Shown here in pieces: positions 56,441-64,000 of a DNA stretch of 64,000 nt. The stretch is from Aliidiomarina taiwanensis. GTDB taxonomy: Bacteria; Pseudomonadota; Gammaproteobacteria; Enterobacterales; Alteromonadaceae. The notes under the pieces are model-generated. The model was not told the origin of the DNA. It was given only the letters and a program-made list of their open reading frames with translations, and ran no database searches. The translations under genes and the position numbers were made by a program. The stretch lies in the NCBI RefSeq assembly GCF_003987015.1, contig NZ_PIPQ01000005.1, positions 1 through 64,000 of the forward strand. Reading direction: 5' to 3'. Every line of letters starts with the position of its first letter. The stretch's first letter is position 1.

Positions 56441-57898
56441 ATGTCCGCTCGTTACTTAAGCCTCAGTCCCTTCTTTTACAGCACGGTCAAGCCTACCCCC
56501 GTGCCGGAACCCCAGTGGATAGCATTTAACCAGCCTTTAGCCGACAGCCTGCAACTTCCTGCTGAAATTGCCAGTTCAGAGCATGCTGCCGCAGTCTCTA
56601 TTTTGGCGGGCAACACGGTACCAAGTTGGGCCACACCCTTTAGCCAAGCGTACTCAGGCCACCAGTTTGGTCACTTTAACCCAACCCTTGGCGACGGCCG
56701 TGCCATTGTTCTGCTCGAAGCCGAAACAGCAACGGGCGAACTGTACGACATTCAATTAAAAGGTGCAGGCCGTACTCCTTATTCACGCTCAGGCGATGGC
56801 CGCTCCCCCATAGGCCCAGTGCTGCGTGAATACCTTGTCAGTGAAACCATGCATACCTTTGGTGTTCCCACAACACGCGCCTTAGCCGCCGTTGCTACGG
56901 GAGGCTGGGTGCGGCGCGAAGAGTCCGCCCCTGGTGCTATTTTAACCCGCGTTGCAAGCAGCCATATTCGTGTTGGTACCTTTCAGTATGCCGCCTCTCA
57001 AGGTGGTAAAGAACGGGTACAAGAGCTTGCCGACTATGTTATACAACGTCACTACCCTCACTTGCAGCATGCCAAACAGCCTTATTTCGAACTTATTAAA
57101 ACGGTCATGCAGCGTCAGGCTCGTTTGGTCAGCCACTGGATGAGCTTGGGCTTTATTCACGGGGTCATGAATACAGACAACTGCAGTGTAGCCGGCGAAA
57201 CCATCGACTATGGCCCTTGCGCCTTTATGGAGCAGTACAATGCTCAGCAAGTATTTAGCTTCATCGATAAGCGCGGTCGCTATCGGTACGACAATCAGCC
57301 CCATATAGCCCAATGGAATATGGCACGTTTTGCAGAGTCATTGGCTGAGTTGGTACGCTTGCCTGACGAAACCAACGACGCACTGATCCGTCGTTTATCT
57401 GAACTGGTAGAAACCTTTCCAGCCATGTATGAAGCTCAATGGCTACAGCGCTTTGGAGCTAAAATAGGTCTTGCCCAGCCAACCACAGCTGATACGCAAT
57501 TAATAAAAGACTTGCTTAGCTTGTTTGCTGAACACGCCATCGACTTCACCCTAGGCTTTCGCTACTTAATAGGCGAGCTCAAGGAACAACCTGAGGCCTA
57601 TGCAACTCGGCAGCTATTTGCTGATCCAGCTCCCTTCCTTGCTTGGCGTAAACAATGGCAGCAGTGCGTCGGTAAGCACGCTCAAGCCCTCATGGCCGAA
57701 GTGAACCCCGTTCTTATTCCAAGAAATCACCACGTTGAAGCCGCTATTCAAGAAGCTCAAAACAAGGGCCAGCTCGAACGCTTTCATAAGTTACTGACCG
57801 CACTACAAACCCCGTTTAACGAACAGCACCTTGGTTCTGAGCTGGCTCAACCTGCCAACGCCGAAGAGCAAGTAACCACAACTTTTTGTGGAACCTAA
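56441..57898 (+). CDS. selO: Protein adenylyltransferase SelO
   Basis: SelO is a pseudokinase-fold enzyme that transfers AMP to proteins and is tied to redox stress. Family motifs are YSGHQFGHFNPTLGDGRA, LKGAGRTPYSRSGDGR, FIHGVMNTDNCSV and IDYGPCAFMEQYNA, with ligands for Mg-ATP. The C terminus ends TTFCGT, the conserved end of the family whose Cys is thought to be redox active. The 485 residues are normal. It lies 111 bases from the divergent dgt start. Confidence 0.96.
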   Translation: MSARYLSLSPFFYSTVKPTPVPEPQWIAFNQPLADSLQLPAEIASSEHAAAVSILAGNTVPSWATPFSQAYSGHQFGHFNPTLGDGRAIVLLEAETATGELYDIQLKGAGRTPYSRSGDGRSPIGPVLREYLVSETMHTFGVPTTRALAAVATGGWVRREESAPGAILTRVASSHIRVGTFQYAASQGGKERVQELADYVIQRHYPHLQHAKQPYFELIKTVMQRQARLVSHWMSLGFIHGVMNTDNCSVAGETIDYGPCAFMEQYNAQQVFSFIDKRGRYRYDNQPHIAQWNMARFAESLAELVRLPDETNDALIRRLSELVETFPAMYEAQWLQRFGAKIGLAQPTTADTQLIKDLLSLFAEHAIDFTLGFRYLIGELKEQPEAYATRQLFADPAPFLAWRKQWQQCVGKHAQALMAEVNPVLIPRNHHVEAAIQEAQNKGQLERFHKLLTALQTPFNEQHLGSELAQPANAEEQVTTTFCGT

Positions 57899-58084: not shown

Positions 58085-59446
58085 ATGCGACTTAGTATTA
58101 TTCTATTGGCCTGCTTAATTGGTCTTATCAGCCCACAAGCAGTGCTTGCTCAATCTACTTCCTCTGCGGAAACGCTAACGGTAAACCAGGTAGTTCAACA
58201 GGGGCGGGAATATTTGACCCAGCAAAAACCAGCGCAAGCCTATGCGCTATTTCAAACCTATGAGCCCGCCTATGCAGGGCAACCCCAATATGACTATTGG
58301 TATGGCGTAGCGGCTATTCGTCATGGTCAGCCGTTTCCGGCGTCACTTGCTTTAGAGCGCGCCATTGCCAAGCAACCTCTGCATGCCGGTGCCCGCTTAG
58401 AGTTGGTTGCCGCCTATATACAGCTAGATCAATACGAGTCAGCCGAGATACAGCTGAACCATCTTGACTCCTTAAACCCGCCACCGCGAGCCCAGCAAGC
58501 CATGGACAACTTCCGCCAAGTAATAGCTGACCGCCGCGCTGGTAAAACGAACAACCCCAGCGTGTATTCGCTTTCACTCGACGCAGGTTACGACAGCAAC
58601 TACCTGAATTACCCTGACAGCTTTGACTTATTTGCCGACACAATTTTAGAAGGCTTAGCAATTCTTGAGGCGGACGGCACCAGCTATAACAATGTGCGCG
58701 GTCTTGCTTGGAAGCGCTGGAATGGCAAGCAAGGTATGTTTGTCGAAGCCAGCTTGCTGGGCCAAATGCGTATCAACCACAACAGTGAAGCCAGTATTTT
58801 CGACACCCGCATTGTGCATGGGAAATTTTCTTTCGGTACCGAACTAAATAAAAGGAATGAGCTAAAATTCGGCTTCGAAGCGTCCCATTTATGGCTCGAC
58901 AATCAGCCTTACCGAACCCACACAGGCTTACATGCGACTTGGAAAGGGGCTATCAATGCCTCTTCAGAACTCGTGGTCAATGGCGCTTTCCGTGAATTTC
59001 GCTTTGACCAGCGCCGCAATGACTATGTGGCGTGGTCGGGCGATGTCGAATGGCGCAAAGCCCTTTCAGAACAATGGCGGTGGCGCAATAAAGCGGGGCT
59101 CGTACAAGAAAGCGTTACGCAAGACGTTACCCGCCAAGGCGGAAATGCCAGAAAAGTTTTTATTTCAACTCACCTAGACTACAACCTTAGTGGTAACAGC
59201 CAACTGCTGAGCACCTTAGGATATGAAAATCACACTTACAGCCAAGAAGGCTTCGCTGTTTTCAACCACGGACAAGCAGAAATACGTGACGACGATAGCA
59301 TTCGCGCACGCCTCGAGTGGATTTATATGCCCAGTAAACACTGGCGCTTTTCACTTTTTGGACAATATCGTAATCAAGCGTCGTCCATCGACTTTTTCGA
59401 ATTAGATCAGACGTTAGTTCAAGGGAGTGTAACCTATGTTTTCTAA
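58085..59446 (+). CDS. TPR plus outer-membrane beta-barrel protein, Slam/DUF560 (type XI secretion)-like
   Basis: A signal peptide (hydrophobic LACLIGLISPQAVLA) leads into a TPR-like N-terminal domain (about 35-155) with QGREYLTQQKPAQAYALF, ASLALERAIAKQPLHAGAR and ELVAAYIQLDQYESAEIQL. From about residue 160 (SLSLDAGYDSNYLNYPDS) the sequence turns into alternating strands of an outer-membrane barrel (GMFVEASLLGQMRINH, FSFGTELNKRNELKFGF, HWRFSLFGQYR) ending in the terminal strand VQGSVTYVF. This TPR-barrel layout and length of 453 are those of surface lipoprotein assembly modifiers (Slam). Its stop overlaps the cargo gene start by 11 bases, so translation is coupled. Confidence 0.8.
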   Translation: MRLSIILLACLIGLISPQAVLAQSTSSAETLTVNQVVQQGREYLTQQKPAQAYALFQTYEPAYAGQPQYDYWYGVAAIRHGQPFPASLALERAIAKQPLHAGARLELVAAYIQLDQYESAEIQLNHLDSLNPPPRAQQAMDNFRQVIADRRAGKTNNPSVYSLSLDAGYDSNYLNYPDSFDLFADTILEGLAILEADGTSYNNVRGLAWKRWNGKQGMFVEASLLGQMRINHNSEASIFDTRIVHGKFSFGTELNKRNELKFGFEASHLWLDNQPYRTHTGLHATWKGAINASSELVVNGAFREFRFDQRRNDYVAWSGDVEWRKALSEQWRWRNKAGLVQESVTQDVTRQGGNARKVFISTHLDYNLSGNSQLLSTLGYENHTYSQEGFAVFNHGQAEIRDDDSIRARLEWIYMPSKHWRFSLFGQYRNQASSIDFFELDQTLVQGSVTYVF

Positions 59447-62400
59447 CATAAAACAGCATAAGCGCGCGCGCTTTAGTCTATCTACCGTCGCCCTCATGGT
59501 GGGCCTGACACTCCCTGTTACGAGCTTCGCAGCAGAAGACGACCATGTGGCCAAGCTACTCTTCACCCACGGCGATGTCAGCCTTACCCGTGATGAAGTA
59601 ACCAAAGCCGCCCAACGTGGCGAACACTTATTTAATAGTGACACCCTGCAAACAGAAGCGGCCTCAAGTGCCCAAATTCGCTTTTTGGACGACGCGCTCA
59701 TAGCCATTCGACCACATTCAACCTTTGCTATTTCCAGCTACGTGTTTGACGAGTCAAACCCTGCCGCAGGAGAGCAAAAAACCGAATTATTGCGTGGTAG
59801 TTTGCGCGCTATGACCGGCGCCATTGGTCGCGCTAAACCTGATAATGTGGAGTTTAAAACACCCGTTGCCACTATGGGTATTCGCGGAACCATTTTGTCC
59901 GTCGTTCATGTCCCATCTGGCCAGGCTGACTTGTATCAGCTACCTGTAGGAACCTTTGTGATGGTTGAGCAAGGAGCGGTTCTCATCACCAACCCTGCAG
60001 GGGCCCAAATGGTTGGTGTAGGCGAAGCCTTCTGGGTACCCGATGCCAATACGCCGCCACAACCAGCTCCGCCAGAAGTCATTACCTTCTTGCAACAGCA
60101 ACAGGCACCACAAAACGACGAAGCAGCAGATGACTCAGAAACAGACGGCACACAAAGCCAAGATGAGTCACAATCTCAAGTTGAAGTAACAGATACTCCG
60201 CCGGCAGCAGACGACGCTACACAGCAAGCGGCTGAAGACGTGGGCGAAGAAATTGCAGACGAGACCATCGAGGAAAACACTGATACGGATCCAGACCCTG
60301 ATCCAGAACCTGAACCTGAACCTGAACCTGAACCTGAGCCTGAGCCTGTTGCTGAGTATGGCATTAACTTAACCTCAGGGGGTTATTTTGATCGTATGCG
60401 CAGCATGATGGGCAACTTTAGACTGCATGCATTTGGTTCGCACACAGCCTTTGTTGAAGGCGGTAACAACTTTATGTCGTTTATTGCCGACGTCGACTCA
60501 AGTCCTGCTGAAATGGGTACTGCCCTTGTTTCTGAATGGATGGAAGGCTCCGCAACAGAAATTCATTGGGGCGTTTGGGCGCCAGGTGATTACACCATAG
60601 CAAACAGCTTAGAAGAGTTGATCGATAACTCCCACTACTTCCCATATATAGTGGCAGACCAACGCGTAGAAACATTCAGTGCGTTGGAAAACATTTTAGT
60701 AACCCGGCATGAACAGCAGGACACCCTCACCTTTAAGCTAGGTGGTGGCACGGGCGTGCATTTGTCCAACGCCGAGCGTGTTGATTTGAGCGACAGCAGC
60801 CGCGTATACGTGGATACTGCGGAAGGCAGCATCGCTTTTGAGCTCGACTTTACCTACTCGGCTGACCAAACGGCCGTATTGCGCAGCTTATTTGGTTCCG
60901 GCTCCGTTGAAGACTTCTACAACAGCTTTATTGCCTTGGAGGAAACCACAGCCGGCCAGAAGTTAATAGAACTTGCCCGCATGTACGGTACTTTTACTGG
61001 CAACAGTGAACAGGGCCTTGACGCACTACTTGCCGGGTTATACTTAGCAGTACAGGGCGACGGTGAGCAGGCAACTGGGTTTGGCTTGCACTACTTCTTA
61101 TACTGCTGGATGGGCGAAAGCTGTGAGGTAACACATGAGCCTGAACTTGCCATGAGCACAGGGCTCACAGAGCGAGGCTTAATCTATAATGGCTTAAGCC
61201 TTCAAAGCTCCGCCGACTCTGCTATACAGAGCTTTTCGTACTTCAGCCCGTTCTTAGCAGCAGATGTACCCGCAGATGTTCGCTCGAATACGTTGCAGTT
61301 TACACTCAACTCTTTAGCAGGCGTACAATCGGAAGCATTATACTCAGCATATTTAAACCCTCACTTGCCTTGGGGTAAAATGAGTTGGGGTACCATAGAC
61401 GCCGACAGTTACTCTATTGAGAGTCTAGGGAATGGTGAAGGCACAGACGCCGTTGGCGCTCACTATCTGTTTCCTTACGTAATGACAAGAAACTCGTTAT
61501 CACTTGACAGTGTTAGCGACCTTTTAGCCACTGAGTATTCTCTCGAGAATACATTGAACTTCCGCTTCTTAGGCGCGACCCCCGTTGCCTTTCAACAGGG
61601 GCAAAGCATACAGTGGCAGCCCCAGTCGAGCATATCCATTGACCTTGCTACAGGTGAGTTAACTGCCTCCTTTGCCTTTGAATACTCGGAAGATCAAGCC
61701 GCAATCGTGCGCTCCCTCGTCGGTAGCGGTAGCATTGAAGACTTCTATACTAGCTTTATTGAACTCACTGAAACGGGTGATGAAGCTGTGATTCAGTTTG
61801 CGCGCTTAGTGGGCACGCTCACTGGTTTCAACGGCACGGTAATCCCTGAGTTTGGTGCGCAATATGACGCCCAGACTATCGAAGGCCTGATTGCTGGTGT
61901 CTTCCTAGGCTTGCACGGCGACGATGAACTTGAGGATATTGGCTTTGGAACCCTGGCTTTCTTGTATTGCCATCTGAACGAAACCTGTGATTTCTCGAGC
62001 CTACAGCGAATTCCTGGTGTGAACTTAACCAACGCCGGTATGCTCGACCGCCACTTTGCGGCTCTTTTCGAGCAAGGCAATATGAGCATTGATTTACGCG
62101 ATGGATATGTTGCGCCTACCGAGCTTCATACGCAAAACTACTCATTTACTGCAGACCCCGATGCCATTCCCATGAATGCTGAAACTGCTTACCTCTACGA
62201 TGAGCTCACCTCCTCGGAAATGGAGGTCGCTTGGGGTGTGTGGGCAGCGGGTGACTATACACTCACAAACTCATTTGGTGAAACCATGGCAAACACCATG
62301 CCTATGCCATATATGTTCTCTAGCCACACAGTAAGTGAAGCCAGTACAGCGGCCGATATTTTTAGCATTCAAAATGACAACACCACACCGCTTATATTTG

Positions 62401-63593
62401 GCTTCTATGGTGGTACAGAGATGTTCATGTCCAATGACAAAGACTTAACGCTTTTATCGGACAGTCTGCTATTTATCGATCCAAGCCAAGACTTACCTAT
62501 TACCGTGTACTTAAGCTTCTTGTATGACTCGGACAATACCGCTGAATATTTCGAAGTGTTTACGCGCACAAGCTTTGCACAGCTCTATTCTGCTGAAGGC
62601 GTGCTGCTGCATTCAGCAGCAGACAACACATTATTTAGCTCAGGTAAAATTCATGGCTCTTTCGTCACGAATGACAACGCGTCTGCCTTAAACGCACTTA
62701 TGGCCGGCATTTTCCTCAACCTATGGGACGAAGCCGATCAAGAACATATACACGGGTACGGTCAGTACTTGTTCACAACTTGCACAGACTCTGTGTACTG
62801 CTATGACCAAACGGACGAATTATTGTTAAGCCAGTATTGGGTAGGAAGTACCAATGCCATAGGCTTTAGTACCAATGACGATATTTCGTCCACCGACGGT
62901 ATCATTACGAGCTCAGCAAATAATATTTATGTTTACTTGTATGAATATGCCTTACCTCTCGTAACCTACCAGCTAAACGATGACGGCTTCTGGTTTTATT
63001 CTTACAGTAACTATTACGAGCCAACCTTCAACACCGAAAACTTTGGAAGTGTGCGTATTCCAACGAACGAAGGTGATAGTGACACAGGCGTCATTTGGGG
63101 CTACTGGGAGCCGGAGTCTTACGACGCTGGTGTGGAGGGACAAACAGGCTCCTACGTATACAATAATAACAGCAACTACCATTACCTCGTTATCGAAGAG
63201 CCCACCGACATTGCCACGCTTAACACCTTAAGCGCTTTGGGTAATCAGGAGTACGGTTTAATCGACGCCAACTTTAGTCTTAATAGCGGCGACAACAGCA
63301 CTGTGTTAGCCATGACCAGCGGTGTTATAAACGTGGACTTCAACGAGCAAACCTTCGGCCTTAACTTAGGCTTTGAAGATGGCTCAACCTTACAAGCCCT
63401 GCAAAACGATGTGCTCGACTTATTTAACGCACAAGCAATTGATTTAGCAGGAACAGGAGCCTTAAGCTCCGGCCAACTAACGGGCCAATTCTTTGGGCCT
63501 GAAGCGGAGGGTATTGGTGCAATTATCGAAGCAATTCTTGCTGAAAACGACGAGTTGCTGCGGGGTATAGGTATTTTCACCCGCGAACCATAA
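59436..63593 (+). CDS. Giant secreted FecR-domain protein with four repeats, probable Slam-type cargo
   Basis: The 1385-residue protein has a signal peptide (LSTVALMVGLTLPVTSFA, no lipobox) and a FecR domain (about 44-200: LLFTHGDVSL, IRFLDDALIAIRPHST, LRGSLRAMTGAI, VATMGIRGT). An acidic linker (about 225-307, with DPDPEPEP runs) leads to four diverged repeats of about 270-290 residues (309-570, 572-855, 858-1135, 1138-1385). Each repeat has a WGxW-like motif (near 376, 648, 931, 1219) and an end such as LLAGLYLAVQGD or, last, GQFFGPEAEGIGAI, which resembles TbpB-type barrels handled by Slam proteins. Repeats 1-3 end in CX5C. The ligand is unknown. The upstream ribosome site is AAGGGAG. Confidence 0.8.
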   Translation: MFSNIKQHKRARFSLSTVALMVGLTLPVTSFAAEDDHVAKLLFTHGDVSLTRDEVTKAAQRGEHLFNSDTLQTEAASSAQIRFLDDALIAIRPHSTFAISSYVFDESNPAAGEQKTELLRGSLRAMTGAIGRAKPDNVEFKTPVATMGIRGTILSVVHVPSGQADLYQLPVGTFVMVEQGAVLITNPAGAQMVGVGEAFWVPDANTPPQPAPPEVITFLQQQQAPQNDEAADDSETDGTQSQDESQSQVEVTDTPPAADDATQQAAEDVGEEIADETIEENTDTDPDPDPEPEPEPEPEPEPEPVAEYGINLTSGGYFDRMRSMMGNFRLHAFGSHTAFVEGGNNFMSFIADVDSSPAEMGTALVSEWMEGSATEIHWGVWAPGDYTIANSLEELIDNSHYFPYIVADQRVETFSALENILVTRHEQQDTLTFKLGGGTGVHLSNAERVDLSDSSRVYVDTAEGSIAFELDFTYSADQTAVLRSLFGSGSVEDFYNSFIALEETTAGQKLIELARMYGTFTGNSEQGLDALLAGLYLAVQGDGEQATGFGLHYFLYCWMGESCEVTHEPELAMSTGLTERGLIYNGLSLQSSADSAIQSFSYFSPFLAADVPADVRSNTLQFTLNSLAGVQSEALYSAYLNPHLPWGKMSWGTIDADSYSIESLGNGEGTDAVGAHYLFPYVMTRNSLSLDSVSDLLATEYSLENTLNFRFLGATPVAFQQGQSIQWQPQSSISIDLATGELTASFAFEYSEDQAAIVRSLVGSGSIEDFYTSFIELTETGDEAVIQFARLVGTLTGFNGTVIPEFGAQYDAQTIEGLIAGVFLGLHGDDELEDIGFGTLAFLYCHLNETCDFSSLQRIPGVNLTNAGMLDRHFAALFEQGNMSIDLRDGYVAPTELHTQNYSFTADPDAIPMNAETAYLYDELTSSEMEVAWGVWAAGDYTLTNSFGETMANTMPMPYMFSSHTVSEASTAADIFSIQNDNTTPLIFGFYGGTEMFMSNDKDLTLLSDSLLFIDPSQDLPITVYLSFLYDSDNTAEYFEVFTRTSFAQLYSAEGVLLHSAADNTLFSSGKIHGSFVTNDNASALNALMAGIFLNLWDEADQEHIHGYGQYLFTTCTDSVYCYDQTDELLLSQYWVGSTNAIGFSTNDDISSTDGIITSSANNIYVYLYEYALPLVTYQLNDDGFWFYSYSNYYEPTFNTENFGSVRIPTNEGDSDTGVIWGYWEPESYDAGVEGQTGSYVYNNNSNYHYLVIEEPTDIATLNTLSALGNQEYGLIDANFSLNSGDNSTVLAMTSGVINVDFNEQTFGLNLGFEDGSTLQALQNDVLDLFNAQAIDLAGTGALSSGQLTGQFFGPEAEGIGAIIEAILAENDELLRGIGIFTREP

Positions 63594-63614: not shown

Positions 63615-63648
63615 AAAGGCCAGGGCGTATGCTCTGGTCTTTTTTTTT
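63615..63648 (+). terminator. Intrinsic terminator of the exporter-cargo pair
   Basis: AAAGGCCAGGGC (63615-63626) pairs with GCTCTGGTCTTT (63631-63642, with G-T wobbles), followed by a run of T, about 20 bases after the stop codon. Confidence 0.88.
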
Positions 63649-63703
63649 GCGATCCATTTCCCTTACTGCCAAACTGCAAGAAACAACAAACAATGAGGTT
63701 TAT

Positions 63704-64000
63704 ATGCGTACTCTCGCCCCTTTATTTGCCCTGAGTAAGGCCGCTCTTTTGGCTGCCTTTATAAGCCAGCCGACAGCTGCTGCAAACGAACACACGGTGC
63801 GTATTTCTCCACAGCTCGAACAGCAAGTGATTGCCTGGCGCCGCGACTTCCACCAACACCCAGAACTCAGTAACCGCGAGTTTCGTACCGCTCGCGTTGT
63901 AGCAGAGCAGCTTGAAGCCTTTGGTTTAGAAGTACAAACGGGCATTGCCCATACGGGCGTCGTGGCCATGCTGCGCGGTGGTCAGCCTGGGCCTACCATC
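63704..64000 (+). CDS. M20-family amidohydrolase/peptidase, partial
   Basis: Only the first 99 residues are in the window. A signal peptide-like start (ALLAAFISQPTAAANE) is followed by VIAWRRDFHQHPELSNREF, the opening signature of M20D amidohydrolases (hippurate hydrolase / aminoacylase group), and LEAFGLEVQTGIAHTGVVAML. Metal-binding residues lie beyond the window edge. The signal peptide suggests a periplasmic or secreted enzyme. TGAGGTT precedes the ATG. It is separated from the giant protein gene by a terminator. Confidence 0.85.
   Translation, partial: MRTLAPLFALSKAALLAAFISQPTAAANEHTVRISPQLEQQVIAWRRDFHQHPELSNREFRTARVVAEQLEAFGLEVQTGIAHTGVVAMLRGGQPGPTI

Follow-up and report, generated by a model that had tools for sequence, protein, structure and literature searches.

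An overlapping gene pair and its conservation

The window, by which we mean the 64,000 nucleotides at the start of contig NZ_PIPQ01000005.1 of Aliidiomarina taiwanensis (RefSeq assembly GCF_003987015.1), carries near its end two complete and intact open reading frames (ORFs) on the same strand. The first encodes a 453-aa protein with a tetratricopeptide repeat (TPR) region and a predicted outer-membrane barrel, the second a 1385-aa protein with an N-terminal FecR domain and four repeats (Table 1); for brevity we call them the exporter and the cargo, or FecR partner. An earlier note, made from the sequence alone, had read them as a Slam-like exporter coupled to a giant repeat protein. Our searches showed that the pairing of such exporters with FecR proteins is widespread and not an isolated oddity. 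They also showed that the pair is coupled to CHASE2-domain nucleotidyl cyclases by linkage, co-presence and co-absence, a conclusion we regard as well supported and the main addition to that earlier reading. The Slam-like group is known in kind; the FecR partner and the strong coupling to CHASE2 mark this variant of it.

The two genes overlap by 11 bases, as the earlier note had observed, and AGGGAG stands 8 bases upstream of the cargo-gene ATG. All 8 Idiomarinaceae-type loci, counting that of the window, keep exactly this overlap, which is therefore not due to chance. The same note had also given both genes one promoter and one terminator. A hairpin followed by a T run does lie downstream of the cargo gene, but promoter-like and terminator-like matches overall are no commoner than in shuffled sequence (5 vs 6.3 and 7 vs 6.1, respectively), so that a single shared promoter and terminator is plausible but unproven. 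The window genome (2.53 Mb) has one exporter match, one FecR-cargo match and one CHASE2 match, and the window exporter is 66% identical over the best segment to that of A. quisquiliarum and 64% to that of A. celeris.

To describe the distribution of the pair, we start with the family, in which the exporter was matched in 33 of 98 genomes and the cargo query in 39, some of the latter through the low-complexity linker only. Among 321 genomes of the class, the exporter profile matched 75 and the FecR-cargo profile 86 (E ≤ 1e-8). Exporter matches with E ≤ 1e-40 were counted as strong; outside the window genome there are 56 of these, in 48 genomes, and for at least 49 of them a FecR match starts 0–1.5 kb downstream on the same strand. 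A FecR gene stands beside the exporter in all 40 loci that were fetched from these 56, in the fortieth (G186) upstream of it, although 39 of the 40 were already FecR-positive in the count of 56 and are not independent of it. Within the family, the profile detects a FecR neighbour in 19 of 20 loci selected through exporter matches, and in the twentieth (L071) the next ORF is FecR-like by eye. Outside the class, the exporters of L219 and L220 are followed by proteins of 1020 aa (L219:9180-12242) and 1206 aa (L220:8635-12255) whose N-terminus looks, by eye, like a divergent FecR region missed by the profile. One 19-kb locus (L227) holds two exporter genes and three FecR-type ORFs across both strands.

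Table 1. Features of the exporter–cargo pair in the window
Feature	Position	Strand	Basis
Slam-like outer-membrane protein: signal peptide, TPR helices, 14-strand barrel, C-terminal Phe (predicted)	58085..59446	+	AlphaFold2 model, TPR_19, family homology
Exporter TPR region, residues 33-155	58181..58549	+	Pfam TPR_19, AlphaFold2 model
Exporter 14-strand beta-barrel (predicted), residues 159-452	58559..59440	+	AlphaFold2 model
11-base gene overlap; AGGGAG at 59422-59427 precedes second start	59436..59446	+	Sequence; overlap common to 8/8 Idiomarinaceae-type loci
FecR-domain repeat protein, 1385 aa, partner or cargo of the exporter	59436..63593	+	ORF, Pfam, repeat profile
Sec-type signal peptide without lipobox (approximate, by eye)	59436..59534	+	Sequence; first Cys is residue 557
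FecR-fold domain	59535..60050	+	PF04773 4e-7; Foldseek match to PupR cell-surface signalling domain 7.9e-5
Acidic Pro/Glu-rich linker, net charge -32, mostly low model confidence	60051..60350	+	Sequence, AlphaFold2 model
Repeat 1: beta handle and TbpB/NHBA-like barrel (predicted), Cys pair 557/563 at end	60351..61151	+	AlphaFold2, Foldseek, profile
Repeat 2, Cys pair 845/851	61152..62039	+	Profile, Cys positions
Repeat 3, Cys pair 1116/1122	62040..62891	+	Profile, Cys positions
Repeat 4, match to NCBIfam Slam-dependent surface lipoprotein model below cut-off	62892..63590	+	NF041636 6.7e-6, 26.5 bits vs cut-off 80
Terminator-like hairpin, then T run	63615..63642	+	Sequence motif scan

Relation of the exporter to Slam

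AlphaFold2, given 46 sequences, modelled the exporter (mean pLDDT 86.5, pTM 0.64) as TPR helices followed by a 14-strand barrel, in line with the layout that the earlier note had ascribed to Slam proteins of type XI secretion (PF04575 SlipAM, formerly DUF560). Foldseek placed BcsC (1.8e-13), PelB and CymA on top for this model, then OmpG and PgaA, with no Slam structure among the 50 matches listed, and PDB sequence searches with the exporter, the cargo or the repeats returned nothing specific. The window protein itself matched no Slam profile: TPR_19 (5.2e-6) alone exceeds its Pfam cut-off, the profile comparison with PF04575 that had been suggested as a check gave no match at E ≤ 1, the PF04575 search of its own genome was empty and there was no NCBIfam Slam match.

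At the level of the family the Slam reading held. Of 21 members, namely the window protein and those of the 20 same-family loci, PF04575 and TPR_Slam are each matched by 11 at E ≤ 1, with best values of 2e-10 and 2.9e-5, respectively. A profile of 46 exporter-family members (A7) matched 67 of 398 genomes of the phylum at E ≤ 1e-20. PF04575 was then run against 12 genomes, of which six (G348, G513, G702, G749, G781, G245) had been selected for weaker A7 matches and six (G023, G183, G222, G421, G640, G751) for exporter matches. In the former group A7 detects 14 of the 15 full-length PF04575 Slams at 1.7e-36 to 4.2e-23; these proteins score 4.7e-106 to 3.1e-41 with PF04575, and the sole full-length Slam missed by A7 is G702:C27. 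In the latter group the exporter is over the PF04575 cut-off in six genomes out of six, the weakest being that of G183 with 22 bits against a cut-off of 22. In a tree of 64 rows, 55 rows stand apart from six PF04575 Slams and three rows without a detected FecR neighbour (support 99/98). A profile-detected FecR neighbour is present for 52 of these 55 rows, the exceptions being L071, L219 and L220. A long branch (1.85) leads to the Idiomarinaceae-type rows, which fits the lack of a direct PF04575 match for the window exporter. We consider it well supported by these sequence comparisons that the exporter family is homologous to Slam and forms a Slam-like group distinct from the Slams used for comparison.

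The resemblance to type XI secretion thus covers the signal peptide, TPR domain, predicted 14-strand barrel, family-level homology and an adjacent partner gene with putatively TbpB-like domains, a gene adjacent to that of the exporter being a feature of Slam cargos. The differences are the separate position of the family in the tree, a window member below profile detection, a partner that is a non-lipidated FecR protein and the link to CHASE2 cyclases. Neither FecR nor CHASE2 occurs in the main texts, as distinct from the supplements, of two surveys of type XI secretion systems (PMC8406197, PMC12282271). Among the open-licence full texts searched, none joins FecR with 'surface lipoprotein assembly modifier'; literature outside open licence may differ.

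Domains and repeats of the FecR partner

As the earlier note had it, the cargo begins with a signal peptide that by eye has no lipobox; no Cys precedes residue 557. Also borne out are its N-terminal FecR domain (PF04773, residues 69-156, E 4e-7 in Pfam) and its four repeats, whose profile cores lie at residues 341-560, 612-848, 893-1117 and 1197-1381, behind a 100-residue acidic linker that follows the FecR domain. PHROGs gave one match over the FecR region, with function unknown. The repeats carry strong negative charge, and repeats 1–3 each end in a Cys pair. Their number varies from 4 to 8 in seven relatives, with 4 in Pseudidiomarina salinarum, 5 in P. mangrovi and in an Idiomarina metagenome-assembled genome (MAG), 6 in A. 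quisquiliarum and A. celeris, 8 in G059 and at least 4 in the UBA6142 MAG, where the contig ends.

Of the alignments made for folding, A9 has one row with 2 misplaced residues. In an AlphaFold2 model of cargo residues 1–575 (pLDDT 81.3, pTM 0.56), made from an alignment of 70 rows, a linker of low confidence joins the FecR domain to a beta handle with a barrel-like strand series. Foldseek matched this model to the PupR signalling domain (6ovk, 7.9e-5), the TbpB C-lobe (1.4e-3) and the NHBA C-terminal domain (6.2e-3, TMt 0.57). FecR is a periplasmic signalling fold, and PupR/FecR cell-surface signalling runs from the outer to the inner membrane. Unlike PupR/FecR proteins, the cargo has, by eye, a signal peptide before the FecR domain and neither a cytoplasmic anti-sigma part nor a membrane helix, and no sigma-factor gene was recognised by eye beside the pair in the window. 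We set aside a role as an anti-sigma FecR regulator because the signal peptide, as read by eye, directly precedes the FecR domain.

The earlier note had likened the repeats to TbpB-type barrels, and this is supported in part. Slam cargos are marked by a C-terminal barrel of eight strands of the TbpB/lipoprotein-C type. The NCBIfam model slam_lipo is matched by 4 of 42 repeats (best 7.8e-7), in the window by repeat 4 and there below its curated cut-off. TbpB_B_D is matched by 2 of the 42 (best 0.059) and by 3 of 22 C-terminal domains of relatives (best 9e-5), and profile-to-profile comparison of the repeats with C-terminal domains of relatives gave E 1.1e-4 at a probability of 56%. The TbpB superpositions have low TM and high root-mean-square deviation (rmsd), and lipocalins and avidins are close behind in the Foldseek ranking. 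Because of this we grade the resemblance of the repeats to the TbpB/NHBA barrel fold as weak to moderate.

A small part of the cargo model also superposes on 5ix9, an N-terminal cell-surface anchoring domain ('antifreeze protein'), with TMt 0.73 and rmsd 1.3 over 62 columns and a weak Foldseek E of 0.012. A profile of relatives matches 5ix9 weakly as well (0.081), and NCBIfam retention_LapA is found in 6 of 15 relatives. Unlike LapA-type adhesins, the window cargo has no RTX domain match in Pfam or NCBIfam, and we kept these weak matches only as a hint of periplasmic retention. LysM anchoring was likewise not taken as main evidence, with a LysM-like stretch read by eye in 3 of 46 partners and Pfam LysM in 1 of 46 (E 0.0043). 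The three partners in question (L166:3913-8256, L187:8954-10996) begin with this stretch, which would hold their N-terminus in the periplasm.

Across the exporter family, partner proteins range from 249 to 2368 aa. We looked for a C-terminal barrel-like domain with iterated C-terminal-domain profiles, which were built partly from the same partner proteins that were later counted. One set comprised 46 partners (43 class-level, two same-family and one betaproteobacterial; partners cut by a contig end were excluded), and 40 of them have the domain. So do all 15 same-family partners, all 8 of Idiomarinaceae type and 4 of the 13 from the phylum sample. In a control for profile drift over 2564 ORFs, 62 of 66 and 64 of 67 matches fell inside FecR ORFs. 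Partners with several copies of the domain occur elsewhere too, as in genome G338, where one partner gene has 4 and a second has 3. Arrangements at single loci vary: at L154:9397-16671 tandem FecR proteins (4 + 3 copies) adjoin one exporter and a convergent CHASE2 cyclase gene; at L153:5971-7711 the FecR gene is followed by ORFs that match the barrel-domain profile but lack FecR, and these may be barrel proteins in their own right or pieces of a longer gene that has been broken; and at L152:5019-8624 a FecR ORF upstream of the exporter has an OmpA-like membrane barrel at its end.

Linkage to CHASE2 cyclases and a possible signalling role

A CHASE2 gene lies inside the fetched stretch of 15 of the 40 class-level loci, compared with about 0.4 expected under random placement, a rough figure that assumes two CHASE2 genes per 3.2-Mb genome. 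Pfam confirms CHASE2 together with Guanylate_cyc in four exporter neighbours. Among the 321 class genomes, CHASE2 is present in 46 of the 49 with a strong exporter match (the 48 and the window's) and in 127 of the 272 others (Fisher p 6e-11, uncorrected for relatedness), and the three strong-exporter genomes without it are 64–77% complete. At E ≤ 1e-8, 62 of the 75 exporter-matched genomes have CHASE2. Co-absence was seen in 14 relatives with small genomes: all seven that have the pair also have CHASE2, and none of the seven that lack the pair has it. The seven without were picked by size and genus among genomes lacking exporter and cargo matches, and A. celeris is not among the 14. Two within-genus contrasts (G000 and G059 vs G010; G026 vs G070) make simple shared ancestry less likely as the cause of this co-occurrence, the remaining relatives not being independent.

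In P. salinarum, P. mangrovi and the Idiomarina MAG UBA6142, genes for a CHASE2 cyclase, a GAF-HD protein, an MBL-fold protein, the exporter and the FecR giant follow one another on the same strand, either slightly overlapping or separated by small gaps, the last of them running off the contig in UBA6142. The GAF-HD, MBL-fold and CHASE2-cyclase genes also lie together on contig C26 of the window genome, and the trio is found in G059, A. quisquiliarum and the Idiomarina MAG of L084. A stretch HHERMDGTGYP in the GAF-HD protein and HAHMDH in the MBL protein are what we take to be HD-GYP and MBL motifs, respectively. Of the 18 phylum-sample loci, 7 have the exporter, FecR and CHASE2 genes as an uninterrupted string on a single strand, and all 7 belong to the 13 that come from outside the class.

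As to other neighbours, the ORF upstream of the exporter (window 56441-57898) is presumably a SelO/YdiU-type pseudokinase, and that downstream of the pair (63629-64000) is one we take to be an M20-type amidohydrolase. By eye, A. quisquiliarum (L082:17148-18527) and A. celeris (L083:16930-18243) have a gene similar to the latter downstream of the cargo gene. Upstream of the A. celeris exporter, in divergent orientation, lie two ORFs (L083:8564-9561) that resemble, by eye, an extracytoplasmic function (ECF) sigma factor and a zinc-finger anti-sigma protein; these were not seen beside the window pair.

We favour, with a little more confidence than doubt, the view that the two proteins form the envelope half of a module for cyclic-nucleotide signalling, in which the Slam-like protein displays the C-terminal repeats and the periplasmic FecR domain informs the CHASE2 cyclase. 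Given its close tie to CHASE2 cyclases, the pair would probably serve in sensing at the cell surface. The 14-strand outer-membrane protein with its periplasmic TPR domain would handle the FecR partner encoded by the overlapping next gene. The C-terminal TbpB-type repeats would most likely be passed through it to the cell surface, as TbpB is by Slam, and the N-terminal FecR domain would be kept in the periplasm, tethered by the long acidic linker. Either the FecR domain or the TPR domain of the exporter may communicate with the inner-membrane CHASE2-domain cyclase, which would work with the GAF-HD and MBL-fold proteins encoded beside it. The Slam-like protein would pass barrels outward where the FecR partner carries them, the common core being the Slam-like protein, the FecR protein and CHASE2. 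We infer repeat export, periplasmic retention of FecR, direct contact between FecR and CHASE2, and cyclic AMP or cyclic GMP as output. More tentatively, a single FecR protein may span the outer membrane through the Slam-like barrel, with TbpB-type domains outside and FecR inside, its state being read by the CHASE2 cyclase; this possible arrangement would be a widespread, undescribed trans-envelope sensor.

Parts of this picture have parallels. The accessible text on S. meliloti (PMC13001267, PMC7529298) describes NsrA, an outer-membrane beta-barrel that acts with the CHASE2 adenylate/guanylate cyclases CyaD1, CyaD2 and CyaK and senses uL2, a protein signal; the FecR protein SMc02177 is a target of this pathway and was reported as dispensable for perception. 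In contrast to our pair, no barrel-repeat partner of NsrA is described in that text, and NsrA is likened to the exporter by description, not by sequence. The Burkholderia BiofilmReg operon has a LysM-FecR protein beside a CHASE2 sensor, which is there a histidine kinase and not a cyclase; the accessible text mentions no Slam-like gene and contains neither 'outer membrane' nor 'tetratricopeptide' (PMC5192318). In 2016 that paper described the environmental factors recognised by CHASE2 domains as unknown.

Several observations weigh against a display and signalling role. Besides the missing PF04575 match of the window exporter and the poor TbpB superpositions, the exporter family is matched by other outer-membrane models, namely DUF2860 (10 of 21 members), BBP2_2 (7 of 21), NCBIfam EpsL (TIGR03014; 6 of 21, best 3.3e-6) and BcsC (3 of 21), and the CHASE2 gene of the window genome is on a different contig from the pair. 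In the seven contiguous exporter–FecR–CHASE2 strings, the C-terminal-domain profiles found no barrel in the FecR partners, and the six partners inspected end in low-complexity, apparently disordered tails; the barrel is therefore not a universal export signal. The matches to EpsL and BcsC, together with the best Foldseek matches of the exporter to BcsC and PelB and a lower one to PgaA, would suit export of a polysaccharide. We nevertheless think this highly improbable and set it aside on strand number (14 in the exporter model, 16 given for PgaA in the accessible text of PMC8406197), on the constant FecR partner and on Slam homology, PF04575 Slams being detected by the family profile. In addition, inspection by eye of the window from 52 to 64 kb, of 11 class-level loci and of 3 Pseudidiomarina-type loci revealed no glycosyltransferase, no profile search having been aimed at one.

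Slam homology and TbpB-like repeats, present in 4–8 strongly negative copies and with Cys pairs closing repeats 1–3, would also be expected of plain type XI-like secretion, in which the whole FecR protein is exported as an outside binding protein or adhesin and the CHASE2 module only regulates. We hold this to be unlikely, since the linkage between FecR and CHASE2 persists where the partner is without a barrel, the FecR fold matches the periplasmic signalling fold of PupR and CHASE2 co-absence is stronger than mere regulation requires. Those same barrel-less partners fit a relay without export, in which the outer-membrane barrel would itself act as receptor and the whole FecR protein, together with its repeats, would pass the signal on to CHASE2 from within the periplasm. 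The action of NsrA with CHASE2 cyclases points the same way, as does the FecR–CHASE2 operon of Burkholderia, for which the accessible text mentions no outer-membrane component. However, such a relay does not account for the growth to 4–8 repeats, nor for the fact that a Slam-family protein is paired with partners whose C-terminal domain resembles that of Slam substrates (40 of 46 in one set, 15 of 15 in another), and we doubt it to a similar degree.

If the exporter and its FecR partner do form the envelope half of a signalling module, CHASE2 domains would gain an identifiable upstream input, and the Idiomarinaceae giants with 4–8 repeats would be long-reach versions of a trans-envelope sensor. 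Slam-type proteins would then extend from secretion into signalling, and CHASE2 would have a testable upstream pathway.

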